From the IMG/VR virus record IMGVR_UViG_3300042731_005992, positions 1-27,424 of that record: DNA of 27,424 bases. One strand, written 5' to 3'. Below the pieces are notes generated by a model. The model did no database searches. It was not told the DNA's origin and saw only the letters and a list, made by a program, of their open reading frames with translations. Origin of the DNA: a virus. This document shows positions 1 through 18,675 of this stretch, in pieces. A program made the position numbers and the translations under genes. Numbering within the stretch: position 1 is the first letter of the stretch; each line of letters starts with the position of its first letter.

Positions 1-123
1 AAAACGACGATAACAGCAATTAATTCTATGCAGTTGAATGACAAAGTCATCACAGATAAAATGCTTAAAAACAAGGCTGATCCGGGTGACGGGATGCGGC
101 CGTTAAGGAGGTTTAGAAAATGA
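1..123 (+). CDS. C-terminal end of an unidentified gene (5' truncated by window)
   Basis: An open frame runs from the first base to a TGA at 121-123 and gives 40 residues ending in a basic RPLRRFRK tail. The start lies left of the window. The stop overlaps the ATG of the next gene (ATGA), so the two are probably co-transcribed and translationally coupled. The last codons also carry the AAGGAGG ribosome site (105-111) of the next gene. I do not recognise the family from this short piece and assign no function. Confidence 0.55.
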   Translation, partial: KTTITAINSMQLNDKVITDKMLKNKADPGDGMRPLRRFRK

Positions 124-284
124 CAGAGTTAGGATTCTTAATAGGTATATCACCAATATTAATAGGATTTATGATGTTATTAATTTATATTTATTGTGAA
201 TTTTACAGACCTAAATATAGAAAGTTTAGGATAAAAAATGAAGATGGTACATATGAGGATATTGAAATAAATATAAATGAATAA
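120..284 (+). CDS. Small single-pass membrane protein, unknown function
   Basis: This is a 54-residue ORF. ATG at 120 is preceded by a perfect AAGGAGG at 105-111 with 8-nt spacing, and it overlaps the upstream stop. Residues about 4-25 form one continuous hydrophobic stretch rich in Ile, Leu, Phe and Met. A basic segment follows (RPKYRKFR), then an acidic tail, so a membrane anchor with a cytoplasmic tail is the simplest reading. It sits just before the sugar dehydratase. It could be a membrane partner of the glycosylation cassette or an unrelated small phage membrane protein. No family recognised. Confidence 0.6.
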   Translation: MTELGFLIGISPILIGFMMLLIYIYCEFYRPKYRKFRIKNEDGTYEDIEININE

Positions 285-293
285 GGAAATATA

Positions 294-1277
294 ATGATTG
301 ATGGCAAAGAATTTCTTATAACCGGAGGTTCCGGGACACTCGGAAAAGAGCTGGTATATCAGATTAAGAAAGATTACAATCCCCGGGGAATACGTATATA
401 TTCCAGGGATGAATACAAACATCTGCTTGCCAAGGAATGGTTTTTGAGCCGGGGGATTAATCTTGAAAAAATAGAATTTATAATTGGGGATATAGCAGAT
501 TATACCCAGTTAAAACGGGTGATGTCCGGGGTTGATATAGTAATTCATACCGCAGCACTAAAACAAGTACTTGCTTGTGAGGATAATCCAATAGAAGCGA
601 TACGGGTAAATATCATAGGCGCTGAAAATGTTGTAATGGCAGCATGGGAAAATCAGATTGAACAAGTGATAAATATTGCAACTGATAAAGGGGTATACCC
701 GGTAAACCTGTATGGAATGGGAAAAGCTATTGCAGAAAAGTTGATGGTTTTCGGTGCAGTTTATACTGGGGGCCGGAAACCTTTTTTTAAATCTTGTCGT
801 TATGGAAATGTAATCGGTTCTCGGGGTTCAGTAGTTCCCGTATGGAAAAGGCAAGTGAAGGATACTGGAAAGATAACGATTACAAACAGAGAAATGACAC
901 GGTTTTTCATTCCCCTTGAAAAAGTGGCAAAGTTTATATTGGAAAGACTTCAGGAAAATGAAACCGGAAAAATATATGTGCCTAAAATGAAGTCAATACA
1001 AATGGGTGAGTTTGCAGACATGCTTTTTCCTGGGGTGCCACAGCAGGAAATAGGGATACGGCCAGGGGAAAAAATACATGAGATTATTATCACTGGGGAA
1101 GAAAACATATTCACGCAGAAAGTCAACAAGCATTATGTAATAGATGCATATCGAATGAAAATAGACCGCTTTCCCTCGAAGGATTGGGAATCAGGACTTA
1201 CCAGTTATGGTCTTGATTCTTATAATAACCCTGAAAGATGGGGGGAAGAGATTTTGAAGTATTGCAAAGGAGAATAA
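294..1277 (+). CDS. PseB/FlaA1-like UDP-N-acetylglucosamine 4,6-dehydratase (extended SDR)
   Basis: Predicted nucleotide-sugar 4,6-dehydratase of 327 aa, the usual size for the PseB/FlaA1 group, whose known members convert UDP-GlcNAc to the 4-keto-6-deoxy sugar that starts pseudaminic acid synthesis. The Rossmann dinucleotide loop GGSGTLG is at residues 11-17. The catalytic block has T130-D131-K132 followed by Y140-x3-K144, at nearly the same positions as in characterised FlaA1. Further family signatures are GNVIGSRGSVVP, MTRFFI and IRPGEKIHE near the C-terminus. The start follows a weak AAGGAAA (283-289), 10 nt after the previous gene. Inverting (PseB) rather than CapD-type activity is inferred from length and motif spacing. 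The exact substrate is not proven. The Maf-like gene downstream supports a glycan role. Confidence 0.88.
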   Translation: MIDGKEFLITGGSGTLGKELVYQIKKDYNPRGIRIYSRDEYKHLLAKEWFLSRGINLEKIEFIIGDIADYTQLKRVMSGVDIVIHTAALKQVLACEDNPIEAIRVNIIGAENVVMAAWENQIEQVINIATDKGVYPVNLYGMGKAIAEKLMVFGAVYTGGRKPFFKSCRYGNVIGSRGSVVPVWKRQVKDTGKITITNREMTRFFIPLEKVAKFILERLQENETGKIYVPKMKSIQMGEFADMLFPGVPQQEIGIRPGEKIHEIIITGEENIFTQKVNKHYVIDAYRMKIDRFPSKDWESGLTSYGLDSYNNPERWGEEILKYCKGE

Positions 1278-1278
1278 G

Positions 1279-1422
1279 ATGGAATATAGAAATGATCTGG
1301 AAGAATTACAAAAAGAGATAGATGCTTTAAAGAAAGAAATACAATTCATGTGGAAATATATAGAAGGAGATCAATCAGCAATAGGAGCAAGAAAGATATC
1401 TAAAATTTTGGATGGAAAATAA
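1279..1422 (+). CDS. Small helical protein, probable coiled coil
   Basis: A 47-residue ORF starting one base after the stop of the dehydratase gene, with AAAGGAGA (1266-1273) at correct spacing before ATG. Residues about 4-30 are a charged amphipathic helix (LEELQKEIDALKKEIQF) with heptad-like spacing of Leu, Ile and Phe. This suggests a small oligomerising or partner-binding protein. Codon use (AGA, AAA, ATA) is more AT-rich than that of the dehydratase. Function unknown. Confidence 0.55.
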   Translation: MEYRNDLEELQKEIDALKKEIQFMWKYIEGDQSAIGARKISKILDGK

Positions 1423-1445
1423 ATAAAGTATTGTGAGGTGAAGGA

Positions 1446-1673
1446 ATGAGAATTGAAAAGGATAAATTGATTTTTGAAAGTGGTAAAATAGTACAGCCAT
1501 ACCAAGGAATTGTAGGAATCAATAATAGATTTGATATAACAGAGGGATATGATGGATATATAAGGGACACTCAGCTTGAATCTGAAACTGAATTATCGAA
1601 AGAAGAGTTAATAGAATTAGCTGATTATATGATAGGTTTATGGAAAAGATTTAAAGATGAGGTGAAAAAATGA
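1446..1673 (+). CDS. Hypothetical 75-aa protein
   Basis: ATG at 1446 is preceded by a GGTGAAGG-type ribosome site. The stop overlaps the next ATG (ATGA at 1670-1673), so it is coupled to the acetyltransferase. The N-terminal half looks beta-rich (KDKLIFESGKIV). The C-terminal third is a charged helix (KEELIELADYMIGLWKRF). No known domain recognised. It is AT-rich, with no CCGG sites, unlike the large genes around it. Its place between dehydratase and acetyltransferase suggests cargo-module membership but not a specific role. Confidence 0.6.
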   Translation: MRIEKDKLIFESGKIVQPYQGIVGINNRFDITEGYDGYIRDTQLESETELSKEELIELADYMIGLWKRFKDEVKK

Positions 1674-2248
1674 TTTACCAGAAAGATAATATAATATTAA
1701 GCCCATTTACAGATTTAGATGCATGGGATAGATATGCAACCTGGTTTGAAAAACCGGAAGTTGTAAAACTTACCAGCCACGGAATATTTCCGAAAAATAT
1801 AAAAGATTTTGAAGAATATACAAGCAATAATGGTAATGGATATATTGTCTATAAAATTGAATGTGATATTGAAAAAGATAATCCAGAATATAATGCAAAT
1901 TGGGAACATGTTGGTAATATATCCCTACAACAAATAAACTGGATTAACCGATCTGCTGAACTTGCAATAATTATAGGTGAGAAGGATTACCATGGGAAAG
2001 GTATTGGAACCTATGCGGTAAAGTGCATGTTGTATCATGCTTTTATGAAGATGGGACTTAACCGGATATGGTCCGGGACAAGTGAAAAAAATATAGGTAT
2101 GCAGAAGGTGTTTGAAAAGTGTGGTTTGGAAAGGGAGGGGATATTTCGACAGGCTAAGTTTTTGAACGGTGAGTTTTCAGATATATGGGAATATGCCATT
2201 TTGAAGAATGATTTTGATTTAGGAAAGGAATTTTTATTTGATGAATAA
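1670..2248 (+). CDS. GNAT-family N-acetyltransferase (possible PseH-like sugar acetyltransferase)
   Basis: A 192-aa protein of the RimJ/RimL-like GNAT class, which moves acetyl from acetyl-CoA to an amine. The acetyl-CoA pyrophosphate loop is H108-G-K-G111-I-G113, following the beta4-strand AELAIIIGEKDY. Downstream is the family pattern of a helix, SEKNIGMQKVFEKCGLEREGI and a final strand SDIWEYAIL. Generic GNATs look alike, so substrate cannot be read off. However, the dehydratase one or two genes upstream and the Maf-like gene downstream match the context of PseH, which acetylates the 4-amino sugar in pseudaminic acid synthesis. An aminotransferase (PseC) would be needed between them and is not in this window. 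Starts at an ATGA overlap. Confidence 0.8.
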   Translation: MIYQKDNIILSPFTDLDAWDRYATWFEKPEVVKLTSHGIFPKNIKDFEEYTSNNGNGYIVYKIECDIEKDNPEYNANWEHVGNISLQQINWINRSAELAIIIGEKDYHGKGIGTYAVKCMLYHAFMKMGLNRIWSGTSEKNIGMQKVFEKCGLEREGIFRQAKFLNGEFSDIWEYAILKNDFDLGKEFLFDE

Positions 2249-2435
2249 GAAATTGGAAAATAAAATAGATATAATATGTAAAATAAGTGAAATAAGAAAT
2301 AAAAATAATGAATGTTGGATGAGTATACTAAAGGTTGCCTTTAAATATGCCCCAGAAGAAGCAAAAAAGATTTTTCAGAAAATAACAAAAAATGACCGGA
2401 AAATAAATGAACTATCAAAGGAGTTATGTGAATGA
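2241..2435 (+). CDS. Small helical hypothetical protein between acetyltransferase and Maf genes
   Basis: I choose ATG 2241 (64 aa) over the in-frame TTG 2238 because AGGAAAGGAA (2221-2230) is well spaced from it. The start overlaps the upstream gene's end, and its stop overlaps the next start (ATGA at 2432-2435), so it is a tightly coupled operon member. It is all-helical and charged, with a central NNECWMSILKVAF segment and a second amphipathic helix (KIFQKITKNDRKINELSKEL). No catalytic motif visible. Conserved position within the cassette hints at an accessory or assembly role. Function not known. Confidence 0.6.
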   Translation: MNKKLENKIDIICKISEIRNKNNECWMSILKVAFKYAPEEAKKIFQKITKNDRKINELSKELCE

Positions 2436-5092
2436 TTAACTATAAAAAAAACATATCCATAATAGAATCATATAACCAGGAAATGGCAAAGAAAATTGAT
2501 GAAGCAAAACAGCCTGATTATATTAAGATTTTAAAAGCCCGTAATAAACAAGAGAATTTTCTATATAAACACGGATCTTCTTTTTTTGCTGCTTATGACA
2601 TGAATAATCCTAACAAAGTAATTCGTACAATTTTGAAAAAAGAAGAGTTTCATAAAGACAAAGGAAGTATTTTAATCGGAGCTGGGTTAGGACATTACGT
2701 ATATGAATTTTGCAGGCATAAGCAGAAAGAACACCGGCTTATAGTCCTGGAACCATATCCATGGTTTATTAAGAAAACCTTTGAAAATTATGATTTGTCA
2801 AAGTGGTTTTCAAATGGTACTCTCATGTTTGTAGGTCGGGAAATGGACCTTAACTATGCGGTGGGGGCCATAGATACTATTGCGGTTATTCAGGGATGGA
2901 ACGTGATCTGTTCAAATTATGCCTATAATCGGCCGAATGAATACGGGAGTTATATTGAATATGCAAATGGCCTGGTGAACCAGTTACATTGCAATATTGG
3001 GACGGTGATGGGGGCCGGTCCACAGATAGCGAAGAATGACATTATGAACCTGCCGTATATAATTAGACACCGGGGGGTGAATATACTTAAGGATGTATTC
3101 AAGGGATGCCCTGCCGTGATAGTAAGTACCGGGCCAAGCCTGGAAAAAAATGTATTCCATCTGAAAAAGATGGGATCCAGGGTAATTATAATTGCGGTTG
3201 CCCAGGCATTACGGGTATTATTGGCATATGATATCAAACCGGATTTTATATGCACGGTGGATTATGGAAAAGTGAATGAGGATCACTTTAAGGGACTATA
3301 TGACTGCAATGTCCCGTTGGTAGCACTTAATCGGACATATGCGCCTATACTGAAAAAATGGAAAGGTACAAAGTATATTGTATCAAGCCAGCCAGAAATA
3401 CAGGAATTTAAGGATACGGTAACCGGGATAATTGCACAAAAAGGTAGTCTTGCCCAGGGAGGTAGTGTGTCTCATATGGCTTTCAGTTTGGGAATGCATA
3501 TGGGATGTGATCCGCTTATTCTGATAGGGCAGGACCTGGGCTATCCGGATGACAAATCTCATATACCGCTTGCAGACGCTTCAGGAAAAATAATCGAAAA
3601 AGACGGCAGACTCGAATGGGACATAAAAGACGGGCGGTCTTCTTTAGGGAAGCAAAAATATCTTATGAGCAATACAGTGATGGCTCATGGGTATTATGGG
3701 GGATTCGTGAGAACAAACCGGGGGTTAGCATCGTTTATCATAACTTTTGAACGGATTATCGCAGATTTAAAAGATTCGAAAATTGTGATAAATGCTACAG
3801 AGGGAGGGGCCAGGATAAAAGGAGCTTTACAATATACTCTTAGAGAAGCAATAGAAAAATATGCAAAATTTAACATAAATAAAAAGCGAATTAAGAATTA
3901 TTCTGGATTGGTTGAAAATTCAGATAAAATAATTAAAGCGGTTATACCTTTATTGGATTATGAAATCGATATTATGAAAGAAGTGGCCGGGAATGCGAAA
4001 AAAGGATTAAAGACCGTTGAGGAAATGAAAAAGTTGAACAAAGGTAAGGAAAATAAAGAAGAGATTCAGGAATTACTAAAACAGAATAAAGAGCATTCAG
4101 TAAAAGCTCAGGAAAAGGCGCAAAAGTTACCTCTTCTCGGGTTGATGATATATCACGAAAGTCGGTTAATCCAGAATAAAGAATTGAAGGTGACAGGGAA
4201 AATCAGACATGTGTTAAAAAACCGGGATGATTTGGAGATCAGGCTAAACCGGAATAAAATTATCCTTACCGCAGCAAAAAAAGCCTGTGAGGAATTGATA
4301 GGGTTGTACAAAAAAACAAAGCAGATATTGCAAGATCACCTGAACGGAAAAGATGTATTGACTTCAAAAGAAAAATATATACCGGACATCTCGGACGCAG
4401 AGGAAATGTTTGATGCAGGGAATTGGGGACGGCCATTATTGGAAGCACAACAGCTATTGAAAATGAAAGGCTTAGAACAATTTGATATAAATAGAGCAAA
4501 TAGTACAATAGAAATAGCAAAACAAATGCGTAAAGAATCTATTGAGCGAAATAAAAAAGAAAATGTAGATAACTCACAGTTAATTCGGTATTTTCGATAT
4601 ATAGAAAAAGCCAGGAAGAAAGGACAGAAAGCAGAGTTTCAAGAAGCATTAACCCTGCTTAAAGAAGCGGTAGCATTGTTCCCGGATCGAGAAGAGGGAC
4701 TATGGGGATACGCTACAATACTCCATCATTGTAAAAGAATACAAGAGGCACTTAAGCAATACAAAAAGCTTATGGAAATAGCCCCGGATAATCTACAATA
4801 CAAGTTTGAATATGGCCAGGTACTGATGCGGGAAGATATACAGGCTGGTATGAAAGTTATTGGGGAGGTAATGGCAAAAACAGAGGAATTTGACCATTTC
4901 CTTGTCCGGGTAGGTGACCTATATTTTGAAAAGGGCATGTACGATCAGGCTATAATAGCATATGAGAACTTCCATAAGAAATACCCCCCGGACCCTGGAA
5001 GTTTGACAAATCTTGCGAAGTCGTATACAATGATAGGTAAGAAACGATTAGCCGATAAGCTGATTAGGAAATACAAGGCATGGGTGAAATAA
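2432..5092 (+). CDS. Maf-like protein: DUF115 (MAF_flag10) domain plus C-terminal TPR-like repeats
   Basis: Large 886-aa protein. An N-terminal Rossmann-like region has GSILIGAGLGHYVYEF (about 78-93) and LIVLEPYPWF. The central DUF115 domain spans about residues 205-390: CPAVIVSTGPSLEKN begins at 226, then KPDFICTVDY, and finally GGSVSHMAFSLGMHMGCDPL with IGQDLGY. This arrangement is that of motility accessory factors (Maf), which in Campylobacter, Helicobacter, Aeromonas and Clostridium put pseudaminic or legionaminic acid on flagellin Ser/Thr. A long helical middle (about 470-690) leads to TPR-like helix pairs (about 715-880; EALTLLKEAVALFPD, EALKQYKKLMEIAPD, QAIIAYENFHKKYPP), probably for binding a protein partner. 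DUF115 is often labelled MptE-like, but that enzyme is much smaller. Starts at ATGA overlap. Confidence 0.82.
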   Translation: MINYKKNISIIESYNQEMAKKIDEAKQPDYIKILKARNKQENFLYKHGSSFFAAYDMNNPNKVIRTILKKEEFHKDKGSILIGAGLGHYVYEFCRHKQKEHRLIVLEPYPWFIKKTFENYDLSKWFSNGTLMFVGREMDLNYAVGAIDTIAVIQGWNVICSNYAYNRPNEYGSYIEYANGLVNQLHCNIGTVMGAGPQIAKNDIMNLPYIIRHRGVNILKDVFKGCPAVIVSTGPSLEKNVFHLKKMGSRVIIIAVAQALRVLLAYDIKPDFICTVDYGKVNEDHFKGLYDCNVPLVALNRTYAPILKKWKGTKYIVSSQPEIQEFKDTVTGIIAQKGSLAQGGSVSHMAFSLGMHMGCDPLILIGQDLGYPDDKSHIPLADASGKIIEKDGRLEWDIKDGRSSLGKQKYLMSNTVMAHGYYGGFVRTNRGLASFIITFERIIADLKDSKIVINATEGGARIKGALQYTLREAIEKYAKFNINKKRIKNYSGLVENSDKIIKAVIPLLDYEIDIMKEVAGNAKKGLKTVEEMKKLNKGKENKEEIQELLKQNKEHSVKAQEKAQKLPLLGLMIYHESRLIQNKELKVTGKIRHVLKNRDDLEIRLNRNKIILTAAKKACEELIGLYKKTKQILQDHLNGKDVLTSKEKYIPDISDAEEMFDAGNWGRPLLEAQQLLKMKGLEQFDINRANSTIEIAKQMRKESIERNKKENVDNSQLIRYFRYIEKARKKGQKAEFQEALTLLKEAVALFPDREEGLWGYATILHHCKRIQEALKQYKKLMEIAPDNLQYKFEYGQVLMREDIQAGMKVIGEVMAKTEEFDHFLVRVGDLYFEKGMYDQAIIAYENFHKKYPPDPGSLTNLAKSYTMIGKKRLADKLIRKYKAWVK

Positions 5093-5761
5093 GTGGCAAG
5101 TAAAAAAGTAATCAAAATAAAGTGTGAAGGAACCCAATACGTAGATTTTCATAAGCTTAATGAATTTCAGGAAGACATTAAACAAAGCTCAAGAGAGGAT
5201 TTGGATAAGCTAAAAGAAGAAATTAAGAAAGCGTTTAAACTGCCGTTTAGTTTATGGAAAAATAAAGAAAAGTGGTGGATTTTAGACGGACATCAAAGAA
5301 AAAAAGCTTTAACAGAATTGGAAAAAGAAGGATGGTGTGTTCCTCTACTTCCTGCGGTAGAAATTAAAGCAGGTACAAAAGCAGAAGCAAAAAAAAATGT
5401 ATTACTTTTCATTTCTCAAACCGGGGAAGTAGATAAAGATAAGCTTAAAATATATGTTGAGCAATACAAAATTGAGTTGAAAAATATTGTGATTCGCCAT
5501 AAAGAAATGGAAATAGAGCCTATCAGATTAAATATAATTGAAAATACCGGGTTAATAGGAACTGATCAAAAAAGTAAATATCTACAAAATCGAATGATGA
5601 TTAAAGTAGGGGATATTGAGTTTTTTCTTAAAAAAAAGGATTATCCAGAATTTAAAATATTCTACAAAGCAAACAATCAAGAAAAAATTAAGACTCTTAT
5701 TATTAAATACTTGAAAAGGATTGTTAATGAAGTATGCATTAATAGAACGAAAAAAAAATAA
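5093..5761 (+). CDS. ParB/sulfiredoxin-fold N-terminal domain protein
   Basis: 222 aa, read from GTG 5093, which directly follows the TAA of the Maf gene. No better start lies near, and the ribosome site is weak. The N-terminus shows the ParB/Srx pattern: YVDFHKLNEFQEDIK, a helix DKLKEEIKKAF, LPFSLWKNKEKWWI, then the core D65-G66-H67-Q68-R69 followed by helix KKALTEL. This variant is one I associate with phage loci beside terminase genes, often with DNA methyltransferases. The C-terminal half is unassigned and lysine-rich. It overlaps the radical SAM gene by 35 nt, implying joint expression. A DNA-binding or base-modification role is inference. Chromosome partitioning is unlikely without ParA. 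Confidence 0.72.
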   Translation: MASKKVIKIKCEGTQYVDFHKLNEFQEDIKQSSREDLDKLKEEIKKAFKLPFSLWKNKEKWWILDGHQRKKALTELEKEGWCVPLLPAVEIKAGTKAEAKKNVLLFISQTGEVDKDKLKIYVEQYKIELKNIVIRHKEMEIEPIRLNIIENTGLIGTDQKSKYLQNRMMIKVGDIEFFLKKKDYPEFKIFYKANNQEKIKTLIIKYLKRIVNEVCINRTKKK

Positions 5762-6950
5762 CATTCTCCAGTATACTTATTATATCCTTAAATGGTTAAT
5801 TCAGATAAATAATCATGAATTAACTAATATTGATGATTGTGATTATATACTTTTTTCGATTTGTGATGTATCAGAAATAGGAGAATTGAAAAAAGCAAGG
5901 GAAGAAAATCCGGGAAAAAAAATTATTGTAGGTGGGCATTTTGCAGTATTTTATAGATTATGTTTATTGTTTAGTGATTATGTAAATATAGGGCAAGGAT
6001 TTGATTTTTTTGAATGTCAATCTATAAGAGCAATAAGAAAACTTGATTGCATTACCTGGAAAGGAAAGAATCAAAAAATTATTGCATCAACAAAAATTAA
6101 ATGGAATGAAGTACCAATTTGTAAAATAACAAAATCATCATATTATTATTGGGGTTCGGTAGGATGTAAGAATAAATGTGCATTTTGTTTAACATCCTGG
6201 ACAAATAAATATCAGAAAAATCGTATATTGAATATTGAAAAAGCTGTAGAATTAAAAAGAGTATCTATTGTCTCAAATGATAATATTGGGATGGAAGATA
6301 TTAAAGAAAGCAGAAAATCTATAAAGCTACGTGATTTTATAAGAATAAGAAATCATTATTGTAATTATTACAGGATTGGGCTTGAATTTGCAACTGAGAA
6401 AAATAGAAAATTGACTGGGAAGTTTTTTACAAATGAGGAATTGTATTATGCAGTTGTCAAAGCATGTAAGGAAAAGGTAAGGATTCAATTTTTTTGTATT
6501 TGTGGATTAGATTCTAAAGAAGAATGGGAAGAATTGATTAATAACATTCCTGATTTAGCGTATGGATGGGGAATCTATTTCAAATTTACAAATCTTGAAT
6601 ATCAGATGTTTACTCCAATTTATAAAAAAAGATATAATATTGATTTGTTAAAATATATGAATCAGGATGATATAAATAAGATTTATTATAATAATAGATT
6701 TAGATTAAAACCTTTAAGAACACGACCTATAAAATATCCTGCTCATGCTTTATGGAGAACAGGTATGACAAATTCTATAGATAGAAAACAATTTAGCATA
6801 TTCTGGAATTTGCGAAATAATAAAAATCTTGATATATTATATAAAGCAATTATAGAATCGGAAATATTTGAAAATGATTATTCCGATACAATTGACTTTC
6901 AACATAACCCTGTAAAACAGGGTAAAAGCAGGGCTTATGGCACAAAGTAA
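5727..6950 (+). CDS. Radical SAM protein with degenerate B12-binding-like N-terminus
   Basis: 407 aa from ATG 5727, chosen because AAAGGA (5715-5720) is 6 nt upstream. The in-frame TTG 5721 has no such site. The radical SAM [4Fe-4S] motif is C147-x3-C151-x2-C154 (GCKNKCAFC). The N-terminal part resembles the Rossmann fold of B12-binding radical SAM enzymes (DYILFSICDVSEIG, KKIIVGGHF, DYVNIGQGFDFF) but has no DxHxxG cobalamin ligand motif. Later blocks fit a radical SAM barrel (YRIGLEFATEKN; RIQFFCICGLDSKEEW). The gene is very AT-rich (mostly AGA arginine, a single CCGG site), unlike TerL next door, suggesting separate acquisition. Substrate unknown. Linkage to a ParB-like gene and terminase suggests DNA or virion modification, as inference. 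Confidence 0.85.
   Translation: MKYALIERKKNNILQYTYYILKWLIQINNHELTNIDDCDYILFSICDVSEIGELKKAREENPGKKIIVGGHFAVFYRLCLLFSDYVNIGQGFDFFECQSIRAIRKLDCITWKGKNQKIIASTKIKWNEVPICKITKSSYYYWGSVGCKNKCAFCLTSWTNKYQKNRILNIEKAVELKRVSIVSNDNIGMEDIKESRKSIKLRDFIRIRNHYCNYYRIGLEFATEKNRKLTGKFFTNEELYYAVVKACKEKVRIQFFCICGLDSKEEWEELINNIPDLAYGWGIYFKFTNLEYQMFTPIYKKRYNIDLLKYMNQDDINKIYYNNRFRLKPLRTRPIKYPAHALWRTGMTNSIDRKQFSIFWNLRNNKNLDILYKAIIESEIFENDYSDTIDFQHNPVKQGKSRAYGTK
6907..6923 (+). other. Perfect 7-bp hairpin before the DUF5681 start codon
   Basis: ACCCTGT and ACAGGGT form a perfect 7-bp stem around an AAA loop. It lies inside the 3' end of the radical SAM gene and 13 nt before ATG 6937. There is no U-tract, so it is not a standard terminator. 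It could tune translation of the packaging genes, or be a protein- or terminase-recognition palindrome. Confidence 0.5.
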
Positions 6951-7254
6951 GACATCCTGGAAACCTGGGCAATCAGGTAATCCGAAAGGGCGGGCAAAGA
7001 AAGATCAAACTCTCACGGCAGCATTAAAAAAGTTCGGGAAAAAGCGGGTTGTAGAAATAGATGGGAAAAAGTATTCCAGAAAAGATGCACTTGCTATTAT
7101 TATGTGGGAAATGGCTTTACGGCAGAGATATTTCCCGGCAATAAAGTATTTGTATGACAGAATGGATGGGCTGCCTAAGCAACAAATAGATGCAAATTTA
7201 GAGCATGGTGGAGAAATAATTATAAAAAGAATAAAGGCCGAAGATGAAGAATGA
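6937..7254 (+). CDS. DUF5681 domain protein, candidate terminase small subunit
   Basis: 105 aa. The N-terminus carries the DUF5681 signature KPGQSGNPKGRAKK (about residues 7-20), a short basic stretch found in many phage proteins encoded just upstream of large terminases. A central helical segment (SRKDALAIIMWEMALRQRYF) and KYLYDRMDGLPKQQ follow. Position directly before TerL with an ATGA overlap (7251-7254) supports a small-terminase or DNA-recognition role. No classical HTH is obvious, so the terminase assignment is contextual. The start overlaps the radical SAM gene by 14 nt and has only a weak AGGG site, consistent with translational coupling. Confidence 0.75.
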   Translation: MAQSKTSWKPGQSGNPKGRAKKDQTLTAALKKFGKKRVVEIDGKKYSRKDALAIIMWEMALRQRYFPAIKYLYDRMDGLPKQQIDANLEHGGEIIIKRIKAEDEE

Positions 7255-8567
7255 CAAAAACTATACATTTCCACGAAGATGTAATATGTCCTGTTTATCG
7301 GTCTTATCTTGATGATTATAAACGGTATAATGTATTTTATGGTGGGGCTTCATCTGGAAAAAGTTATTTTGCAGCTCAAAGAGATGTTTTTCGGTGTATA
7401 AGTGAACAGGGGCATAATTATCTTATTCTTAGAAAAGTTGACAGAACTTCAAAAGATTCTACTTTTGCGGATGTGAAGAAAATAATAACAGACTGGAATC
7501 TCTGGCCATATTTTAAAAAAAATGAAACCGAACAACGATTAAAATGTTTAATTACCGGAAATAATATGATTTTCAAGGGCTTGGATAATCCCGAGAAGAT
7601 CAAGTCAATAACCTTTGAGACAGGGCCGGTCACTGATATCAGGATGGAAGAGGCAACCGAGTTTACATATGATGATTTTAATCAGATAAAACTTAGATTA
7701 AGGGGAGAGGCAAGAGTTCCTAAACAAATAACTTTGACTTTTAATCCTATATCGGCATTGCATTGGGCTAAGAAATACTTTTTTGACATACCGTTACCAT
7801 TAGATAAATGCAGTATTTTGAAGACGACTTATAAAGATAATCCCTTTCTTGAACAGGAGGATATAGAAGAAATCGAACGGATAAAACAAGAGGATCCGAC
7901 TTATTGGAAGGTATATGGTTTAGGTGAATGGGGGGTACTCGGGAATCTGGTATTTCATAATTATGTGATTGAAGAGTTTGATTTCACGGTTAAGGAATTG
8001 CAGAATAATTGCTATGGTCAAGATTACGGGTTTAATCATGCTAACACTTTAATTCCTGTGGGGTTTTATGATGGGGAAATTTATATATGGAATGAAGTAT
8101 ATTTGCTTAAACATACGAATCCTGAGTTTATCCATGTAGTGAATAATACGCCTTGGTTCAGTAAGAAAAACAGGATTACTGCTGATAGTGCAGAACCGGA
8201 CCGGATAACAGAATGGAAAAAACAAGGATATAGGGTTTACCCGGCGAAAAAGGGGAAGGGTTCTTTGAAAACCGGAATTGATTATCTTAGAAGTAAAAGA
8301 ATTCATGTGCATAGAACAAAAGCACCAAATACAGCCAGGGAATTACAGTTATTCAAATATAGAGAGAATTCAGATGGAACTCCTATCGATGAATTTGTAG
8401 AATTATTTGATGATTGTATTGCGGGGATGCGATATGCTACAGAATGGTTATGGTCAAAGGGATTTGGCCGGGCCAGGGCATCCACAGTGAAGAAAAAAAA
8501 GTATGAGGGCAGCGTGTTAGATAAGATAATAGAGGCAGAGAATCGGAGACACGGGAAAAAGGCTTGA
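7251..8567 (+). CDS. terL: Terminase large subunit (PBSX/Terminase_3 family)
   Basis: 438 aa, normal for this family. The protein is the packaging ATPase and headful or cos nuclease. Walker A is G31-GASSGKS38 and Walker B ends in M132-E133-E134 (DIRMEEATEF), followed by the coupling motif LTFNPISALHWAKKYF. The C-terminal RNase H-like nuclease has likely metal ligands D258 (GQDYGF), D312 (TADSAEPDRI) and D387/D388 (ELFDDCIAGMRYA). The start overlaps the stop of the DUF5681 gene. The last codons contain the -35 of a downstream promoter. No sign of damage. Confidence 0.95.
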   Translation: MTKTIHFHEDVICPVYRSYLDDYKRYNVFYGGASSGKSYFAAQRDVFRCISEQGHNYLILRKVDRTSKDSTFADVKKIITDWNLWPYFKKNETEQRLKCLITGNNMIFKGLDNPEKIKSITFETGPVTDIRMEEATEFTYDDFNQIKLRLRGEARVPKQITLTFNPISALHWAKKYFFDIPLPLDKCSILKTTYKDNPFLEQEDIEEIERIKQEDPTYWKVYGLGEWGVLGNLVFHNYVIEEFDFTVKELQNNCYGQDYGFNHANTLIPVGFYDGEIYIWNEVYLLKHTNPEFIHVVNNTPWFSKKNRITADSAEPDRITEWKKQGYRVYPAKKGKGSLKTGIDYLRSKRIHVHRTKAPNTARELQLFKYRENSDGTPIDEFVELFDDCIAGMRYATEWLWSKGFGRARASTVKKKKYEGSVLDKIIEAENRRHGKKA

Positions 8568-17598: not shown

Positions 17599-18102
17599 AT
17601 GAAAAGAGATATATATTCAAATTTTAGATTTTTACAGGCATTACCTCCGTTGATTTATCATAGCGGTACTTTTCCGGCAGGTGGTGAAATATCAGGACCG
17701 TCTATTGATACCCAGGGATTTGAAGGACTTACCTTTGCAATCGAAACCGGAGATGTAGATGTATCACAGGCTACCAGTCTTGTTGTAATCAGGATGATGC
17801 ACGCAGAAGATTCAGGAGTAGGACCATCCACTTACATCAATGTGAGTGCAGAGGATATCATACATAGTGCTTATTCATTTGGAGATGCTTTAACATCCGG
17901 GATTGTGTTCGATTTTTCTATATCCGGTACATCGGTTGCGGACTTGGAATCTACAACATTTTATGTTGGCTATATTGGAACACAACGATATGTGAAACTT
18001 TTCGTTGAATCACATGGAACTGCGGATGCTGGATCAACATACATTGGAGCCACAGCCATACTCGGATACCCCAACAATTGGCCCGTTACTGAACCAGGTT
18101 AA
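17599..18102 (+). CDS. Probable capsid decoration or head structural protein
   Basis: 167 aa with GGGAGG (17588-17593) 5 nt before ATG. The protein is beta-rich with segments IDTQGFEGLTFAIETGD, TTFYVGYIGTQRYVKLFVE and a C-terminal YIGATAILGYPNNWPV. This pattern (GF...VGYIG.QRYVKL...A.LG.P...PV) is one I associate with small proteins encoded just after HK97 capsid genes. Position and predicted beta-sandwich suggest capsid decoration. No cement-protein activity is shown by sequence alone. Confidence 0.7.
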   Translation: MKRDIYSNFRFLQALPPLIYHSGTFPAGGEISGPSIDTQGFEGLTFAIETGDVDVSQATSLVVIRMMHAEDSGVGPSTYINVSAEDIIHSAYSFGDALTSGIVFDFSISGTSVADLESTTFYVGYIGTQRYVKLFVESHGTADAGSTYIGATAILGYPNNWPVTEPG

Positions 18103-18114
18103 GTGAGGTGATGT

Positions 18115-18675
18115 ATGGCAGAAACAAGTAGTAATTATCAAACAAAAATTGGTATAGAAAAAGAGGCTGAAAGATTTTTCATGCGAGAAGATGGATATTT
18201 CAACTTTTTTGATGAAGAATTTCCAGGCGGAATATTACGATCACTCGCACAACAAACAAAAGTATATACGATTACAAATTATTCAACAGCAGGAACTACA
18301 TTGTCTGATCATGGAGGAAGTGCACCTCCTGTATTGCCGTCCGGTTATGGAACAATCAGAATAGAAGCGAGTGATGCCGGTACAAATCTTTCAGCACGAT
18401 TGGCAAGTGCTTATTCAGGACAAGAACTTAATCTTGTACTAATGGCCGGATCAGTTGCATCTGTGATTATATACTGTTCTGGACATGCATCCGGCATATC
18501 CGGGGTGAATGTAATTGGGTTACATCATTCGGCAGGCGCATCTGCATTATCATCAATCAGCATGAGACAATCAGCGGGAAGTTTTGCGAGAGTGAAACTA
18601 AGAGCATTAGATTCAGGCGATTGGGCTGTTGTAGAAATTGACTCCGTTGATAATGTAACTGAAAGAAGAGCATAA
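18115..18675 (+). CDS. Probable capsid-associated structural protein
   Basis: 186 aa, ATG 18115 after GTGAGGTG (18103-18110). A short charged N-terminal helix (GIEKEAERFFMREDGYFNFF) precedes a Ser/Ala/Gly-rich beta domain (QELNLVLMAGSVASVIIYC; SAGASALSSISMRQSAGSFA; GDWAVVEIDSV). It looks like a small surface or decoration protein of the virion. The gene is followed at once by a GC-rich hairpin, so it may close the highly expressed capsid section of the operon. Family not recognised. Confidence 0.62.
   Translation: MAETSSNYQTKIGIEKEAERFFMREDGYFNFFDEEFPGGILRSLAQQTKVYTITNYSTAGTTLSDHGGSAPPVLPSGYGTIRIEASDAGTNLSARLASAYSGQELNLVLMAGSVASVIIYCSGHASGISGVNVIGLHHSAGASALSSISMRQSAGSFARVKLRALDSGDWAVVEIDSVDNVTERRA

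Follow-up and report, generated by a model that had tools for sequence, protein, structure and literature searches.

A cassette predicted to make a nonulosonic acid (NulO) and to attach it to protein lies at the start of the 27,424-nucleotide stretch of viral DNA analysed here (IMG/VR record IMGVR_UViG_3300042731_005992, positions 1 to 27,424; hereafter the window) and extends upstream of it in the same phage genome. Nonulosonic acids are sugars of bacterial surfaces, and Maf proteins are known for glycosylating flagellin; in this phage, a Maf-family protein with a C-terminal tetratricopeptide repeat (TPR) region is encoded directly behind genes for the synthesis of such a sugar. That the cassette serves both the synthesis of the cytidine monophosphate-activated sugar (CMP-NulO) and the glycosylation of a protein we hold to be probable and, granted this, a virion protein is somewhat favoured over a host protein as acceptor. 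For the reading as a whole, in which the phage makes CMP-NulO and its Maf O-glycosylates a protein, probably one of the virion, we consider the chances to be about even. The virion is favoured because the Maf gene lies just before the terminase in two groups of related phages (groups B and C, described below) and, in seven other contigs of a third group (group A), next to tail genes that run towards it, because flagellin is never linked to it, and because the complete phage genome contains neither a tyrosine integrase nor a resolvase.

On one strand, the proposed cassette would comprise a cytidine triphosphate (CTP) transferase, a Gfo/Idh oxidoreductase, a DegT/PseC aminotransferase, a NeuB/PseI synthase, a PseB dehydratase, a GNAT and the Maf-TPR protein, with the window holding its 3' half (L002 coordinates refer to a stretch of the contig that includes the part identical with window positions 1-6185):

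1-123, + strand: 3' end of the gene for the NeuB/PseI-like synthase (274 residues; the rest lies upstream, L002:6868-7692)
294-1277, + strand: PseB/FlaA1-type uridine diphosphate N-acetylglucosamine (UDP-GlcNAc) 4,6-dehydratase (327 residues; PF02719, E 1.8e-79)
1279-1422, + strand: helical open reading frame (ORF) of 47 residues, with a near-identical second copy in the same phage genome (G001 49248-49391)
1446-1673, + strand: ORF of 75 residues, no family matched
1670-2248, + strand: GNAT N-acyltransferase with a proposed PseH-like role (192 residues; PF13302, E 2.3e-20)
2241-2435, + strand: ORF of 64 residues, no family above cut-off
2432-5092, + strand: Maf-family (DUF115) protein with C-terminal TPR, proposed nonulosonate O-glycosyltransferase (886 residues)
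3035-3550, + strand: DUF115/MptE-like core of Maf (residues 202-373; PF01973, E 2.4e-44)
4613-5074, + strand: TPR region of Maf, proposed acceptor-binding domain (about residues 728-881; role by analogy with FlmG)

Hidden Markov model searches with PF02719, PF13302 and PF01973 each matched the expected gene, the last with 151.6 bits against a cut-off of 34.6. Comparison of a predicted structure of the Maf protein using Foldseek gave the Maf from Magnetospirillum as the top match (5mu5; E 1.4e-13), and a profile built from the phage Mafs retrieved the same structure (E 3.5e-12), such that fold and profile agree on a solved Maf. The score with the PseD equivalog NF050051 was 99.5 bits and lies below the cut-off of 670. 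For the dehydratase, which possesses a Polysacc_synt_2 domain with TDK and YxxxK motifs, the best NCBIfam family is PseB (TIGR03589, 309 bits; FnlA 196) and the nearest solved relative is FlaA1/PseB (2gn4, E 1e-65), with T130-D131-K132 and Y140/K144 aligning with the same motif in this structure: the enzyme is complete and groups with PseB, FlaA1 and CapE rather than with unrelated short-chain dehydrogenases/reductases. The genes are coupled, with the start at 1670 overlapping the stop at 1673, 2241 overlapping 2248 and 2432 overlapping 2435. The original prediction, made from the letters of the window, had described a complete PseB/FlaA1-type dehydratase, a GNAT and an 886-residue DUF115 protein with TPR-like repeats in one coupled + strand array directly upstream of packaging genes, and this description was confirmed throughout, the terminase included. 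The reading it drew from these genes, namely that the phage may glycosylate host flagella or its own virion proteins, was likewise supported. Its further suggestion that the small helical genes at 1279, 1446 and 2241 are partners in the cassette found no support: the second copy of the 47-residue ORF is located 10.4 kb upstream, outside the cassette, and we therefore rejected this gene as a dedicated cassette partner.

PseC-, PseI- and CMP-transferase-like functions had been expected to come either from upstream or from the host, and they are indeed encoded upstream, in the phage itself. The same-strand order there is a CTP-transferase/SpsF-like gene (PF02348, E 9.3e-25), a Gfo/Idh oxidoreductase gene (PF01408, E 1.4e-10), a DegT/PseC-like aminotransferase gene (PF01041, E 1.4e-73; 164 bits with PseC) and the NeuB synthase gene (PF03102, E 9.3e-36; 123.9 bits against a cut-off of 22.1), and the conserved Lys and His positions of SpsE and PseI are kept in the phage NeuB. 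About 90-115 bases before NeuB there is a perfect match to TTGACA-16-TATAAT (L002:6754-6781), which is sigma-70-like as a consensus match only.

In order to assess recurrence, IMG/VR was searched with alignments of Maf and NeuB, as scans of its viral contigs with single proteins had matched only the identical contig, and neighbouring genes were annotated by sequence search with known members. The scans use short patterns, and contig counts are thus lower limits; relatives were given simple ORF calls, which leaves their small genes uncertain. Group A consists of 11 contigs, two of which share the same Maf region, with Maf-TPR proteins of 860-970 residues that are 34-46% identical to the window Maf over the best segment. 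A GNAT homologue precedes Maf in all 11, PseB is found in 10 of the 11, and DegT and Gfo/Idh are found in each of the eight contigs with enough upstream sequence. In group B (12 contigs, Maf of about 610 residues), the recognised gene that directly precedes Maf is PseB in 10/10 untruncated contigs and the terminase large subunit (TerL) is the next recognised gene after Maf in all 11 contigs that reach this far; the TerL (phrog_38, E 7.1e-74) and capsid (PF05065, E 5e-44) assignments were confirmed, and the cassettes include a GNAT and the gene for a terminase small subunit (PF16677), in many cases together with a formyltransferase. The latter (PF00551; L143:288-848 and relatives) suggests an N-formylated amino sugar in these phages. 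Group C (8 contigs, Maf of about 640-700 residues) likewise has TerL as the next recognised gene after Maf (8/8), and the four contigs with enough upstream sequence all encode NeuB, NeuC (PF02350, E 7e-45) and a CTP transferase, a gene set that would correspond to a second, sialic/legionaminic-type route. In a separate test, NeuB was also present in 15 of 27 phage contigs that had been found by Maf alone.

At least three phage lineages thus possess the cassette, for the most part next to virion-building genes, and the linked sugar genes whose presence in related phages the original prediction had made decisive were encountered in all three groups. The E-values together with a gene set that is kept in other phages exclude chance. 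Three further observations concern individual relatives: in G002 (L138:4153-7395), a full-length NeuB (356 residues, SAF-like tail) is encoded together with a CTP transferase at a distance of about 13 kb from the Maf block; in L151:2304-8475 of group C, methyltransferase-like and lactate-racemase-N-like genes also precede Maf, together with NeuB, NeuC and the CTP transferase; and in L247:1497-4503, Maf is split into two frames by a frameshift or an assembly error.

The window belongs to an IMG/VR contig of 64,542 bases, with positions 1-6185 identical to the contig end and 6160-27424 to its start; as the window bridges both ends, the genome is circular as assembled. This 64.5 kb genome encodes a portal, capsid, tail sheath and tape measure and hence a contractile tail, and with its terminase and circular contig it is that of a tailed phage. 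The GC content of the cassette (0.33-0.39) brackets that of the genome (0.372). Downstream of Maf, and further along the window, the following features were recorded:

5093-5761, + strand: ParB/GmrSD-N-like protein, starting right after the Maf stop (phrog_1033, E 1e-4; PF03235, E 0.0014)
5721-6950, + strand: weak radical-SAM protein of 409 residues, between Maf and terminase (PF04055, E 4.6e-5)
6937-7254, + strand: small ORF where a terminase small subunit would be expected, an assignment from position alone
7251-8567, + strand: terminase large subunit, linking the cassette to the packaging region downstream (PF04466, E 4.3e-51; phrog_3717, E 8.3e-73)
17599-18675, + strand: pair of proteins following the major capsid protein, candidate acceptors (Ser+Thr 19.8% and 19.4%)

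The Ser+Thr content of the last two proteins is the highest of the genome (median 9.8%), which makes them a lead, and only that, in the search for Maf acceptors. The ParB-like and radical-SAM genes have no homologues in the other cassette phages tested and were rejected as cassette members; group B cassettes contain a B12-radical-SAM gene (L143:7990-9189), which is different from that at 5721-6950. Upstream of the cassette, a gene of the 3'-phosphoadenosine 5'-phosphosulfate (PAPS) reductase family resembling SspD (PADLOC, E 8.4e-19; L002:831-1523) adjoins a DNA-methyltransferase-like gene (L002:178-831), and it is possible that these two genes and the ParB/GmrSD-N-like gene form a DNA-modification set; PADLOC gave no match for the cassette. 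The genome also carries three tRNA genes side by side (Leu, Leu, Tyr; L006:13889-14126), which were not informative as to the host.

From the families encoded, a pseudaminic acid (Pse)-type route can be proposed: UDP-GlcNAc would be dehydrated by PseB, aminated at C4 by the DegT enzyme and acylated by the GNAT, after which, given the absence of PseG, the removal of UDP would fall to an enzyme of the host or to one not recognised as such. NeuB would then condense the six-carbon sugar with phosphoenolpyruvate and the CTP transferase would convert the product into CMP-NulO, with Gfo/Idh probably contributing some side modification. Finally, Maf would move the sugar onto Ser/Thr residues of a protein bound by its TPR domain, this acceptor most likely being a virion protein that is produced in the same late phase; any benefit to the phage might lie in shielding or in altered adsorption. 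Extended to the other groups, the proposal would be that several phage lineages possess a dedicated virion O-glycosylation module with its own sialic-acid-like sugar (from a PseB/PseC- or NeuC/NeuA-type route) and a phage-lineage Maf, acting in late morphogenesis to give a sialic-acid-like virion coat, and here we find the arguments evenly poised.

Several observations weigh against a phage-made sugar on the virion. The PseB, PseC, PseI, PseH and PseD labels all fall under the NCBIfam equivalog cut-offs, as seen with the dehydratase (309 against 407.75 bits with TIGR03589) and the GNAT (37.8 bits with the PseH equivalog TIGR03585, cut-off 93.1), so that a related pathway, and with it another sugar of this kind, is possible. 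PseG was not found in any of the 15 phages tested, which leaves the canonical pseudaminic acid pathway incomplete, with B, C, H, I and the CTP transferase present as relatives that score below the equivalog cut-offs. The phage NeuB, at 274 residues, has no C-terminal SAF domain, and this tail is missing from the NeuB of all but one phage aligned; a NeuB from a Solidesulfovibrio plasmid has the same short ADPxDGxRPL tail, which indicates that the SAF-less protein is a natural short form. The Maf model is of moderate quality (predicted local distance difference test score 75.6; template modelling score of 0.33/0.44 to 5mu5), yet the E-value of the fold match is low. With regard to location, the cassette of seven other group A contigs faces convergent tail-fibre genes and not the terminase, and two group B phages carry an integrase or resolvase: some group B phages may therefore be temperate, which keeps a host target conceivable for them.

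The alternative acceptor that deserves most attention is host flagellin, onto which Maf might place the phage-made NulO and so change receptor access or block superinfection. Characterised Mafs modify flagellin (PMC4065374, PMC11339370), of the 80 bacterial loci whose Maf is closest to that of the window, 20 have flagellin or FliD within reach, and some group B relatives carry an integrase or resolvase. Against this, the flagellin N-domain PF00669 was found in none of the 44 phage contigs tested, whilst the same search was positive in flagellated controls; the cassette adjoins packaging or tail genes, and in a complete genome that lacks a tyrosine integrase and resolvase a lasting flagellar change would bring little. 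Linkage to flagellin or flagellar genes, a usual (if not universal) trait of Mafs, is thus missing from the phage, which does show the other trait of linked genes for NulO donor synthesis. None of the 80 bacterial loci matched a phage structural query and Gfo/Idh was found in one of them; a scan of genome contigs with the narrow alignment A4 gave no relative, whereas the broader A1 did find relatives. Overall, we regard flagellin as an unlikely acceptor, albeit the least unlikely of the alternatives. Less probable still is that CMP-NulO feeds the synthesis of capsule, lipopolysaccharide or S-layer with Maf as a side player, for which the precedent is the alteration of pseudaminic acid in the host capsule by phage EpaA/EpaB (PMC12053666): amongst the cassette genes, none was recognised as a polysaccharide polymerase, a flippase or a membrane glycosyltransferase, Maf is constant in all three phage groups and its characterised members act on proteins, and nearly a whole pathway is encoded rather than an edit of a host sugar.

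We consider it very improbable that phage DNA receives the sugar in place of protein, even though a DNA-methyltransferase-like gene and the SspD-resembling PAPS-reductase gene lie upstream and phages are known to glycosylate DNA (PMC12619734); there is no base-hydroxymethylation gene amongst the genes that could be named, Maf belongs to a protein glycosyltransferase family, and its TPR suggests a protein partner. An artefact appears hardly credible. Bacterial flagellin islands (L010, L011) do have much the same gene content, but a mis-binned island was rejected given one circular genome with portal, capsid, sheath and tape measure, two contigs that overlap identically, the lack of flagellin and the existence of phage-only Maf clades; a fresh capture without function was rejected on the genome-like GC content and the distance to bacterial Mafs, and gene order is kept across 34-46% identity. 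In the Maf tree (99 rows, quick method, long branches), one phage-only clade holds the three Mafs that represent group A (Shimodaira-Hasegawa-like approximate likelihood ratio test support 100) and a second holds 16 Mafs from groups B and C (support 97), with one long phage Maf (G003) placed among bacteria, so that the phage Mafs may not go back to a single phage origin.

A near-whole route with its own Maf, no flagellin and a position beside packaging genes points to a coat of sialic-acid-like sugars on the virion; such a coat would bear on how the phage adsorbs, which hosts it can use and whether lectins or antibodies recognise it, and the phage Mafs would offer a natural set with probable non-flagellin acceptors. 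Three Maf queries found no Maf in 50,697 GenBank phage records, and two NeuB queries gave 0 and 3 records; Marine virus AG-345-L05 (L238, MH319754.1) has neighbouring DegT and NeuB genes. The DUF115 domain alone is not new in phages, as a public library already contains structure predictions for such proteins of uncultured phages. In the literature searched we found no paper that deals with Maf in phages or with a NulO pathway encoded by one, although pseI stands among the abbreviations of the phage-gene table of one review. The parts are known, whilst for their combination, a pathway carried by a phage together with its own Maf and located at the packaging region, we came across no description in that literature. 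The mycobacteriophages of Freeman 2023 reportedly employ other glycosyltransferases and no NulO pathway.

Amongst known systems, mycobacteriophage virions bear glycans on their capsid and tail proteins (Freeman 2023, PMC10527164, as cited in PMC12619734). The nearest published phage case found is that of EpaA/EpaB from an Acinetobacter baumannii prophage, phage genes that act on a nonulosonic acid (PMC12053666) but only edit a host sugar: they epimerise host-made Pse in the capsule and come with neither a pathway nor a Maf. The Magnetospirillum Maf, despite being the top match in fold and a match in profile, shares 13% identity with the phage protein, which differs in its TPR tail and in having no flagellin neighbour. 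A TPR joined to a Pse transferase is found in Caulobacter FlmG, in which the TPR domain binds the acceptor and the other domain adds pseudaminic acid (PMC7591256); there, however, the TPR is N-terminal, the catalytic domain is GT-B and not DUF115, and the acceptor is flagellin. In gene content the cassette resembles the bacterial flagellin islands of, for example, Acetoanaerobium, Paenibacillus and Clostridium (PseB/C/H/G/I/F and Maf), which use the same enzyme families with Maf adjoining PseB: compared to these, the phage version is without flagellin and PseG, and is set apart by Gfo/Idh, a mostly SAF-less NeuB and its place beside packaging or tail genes.

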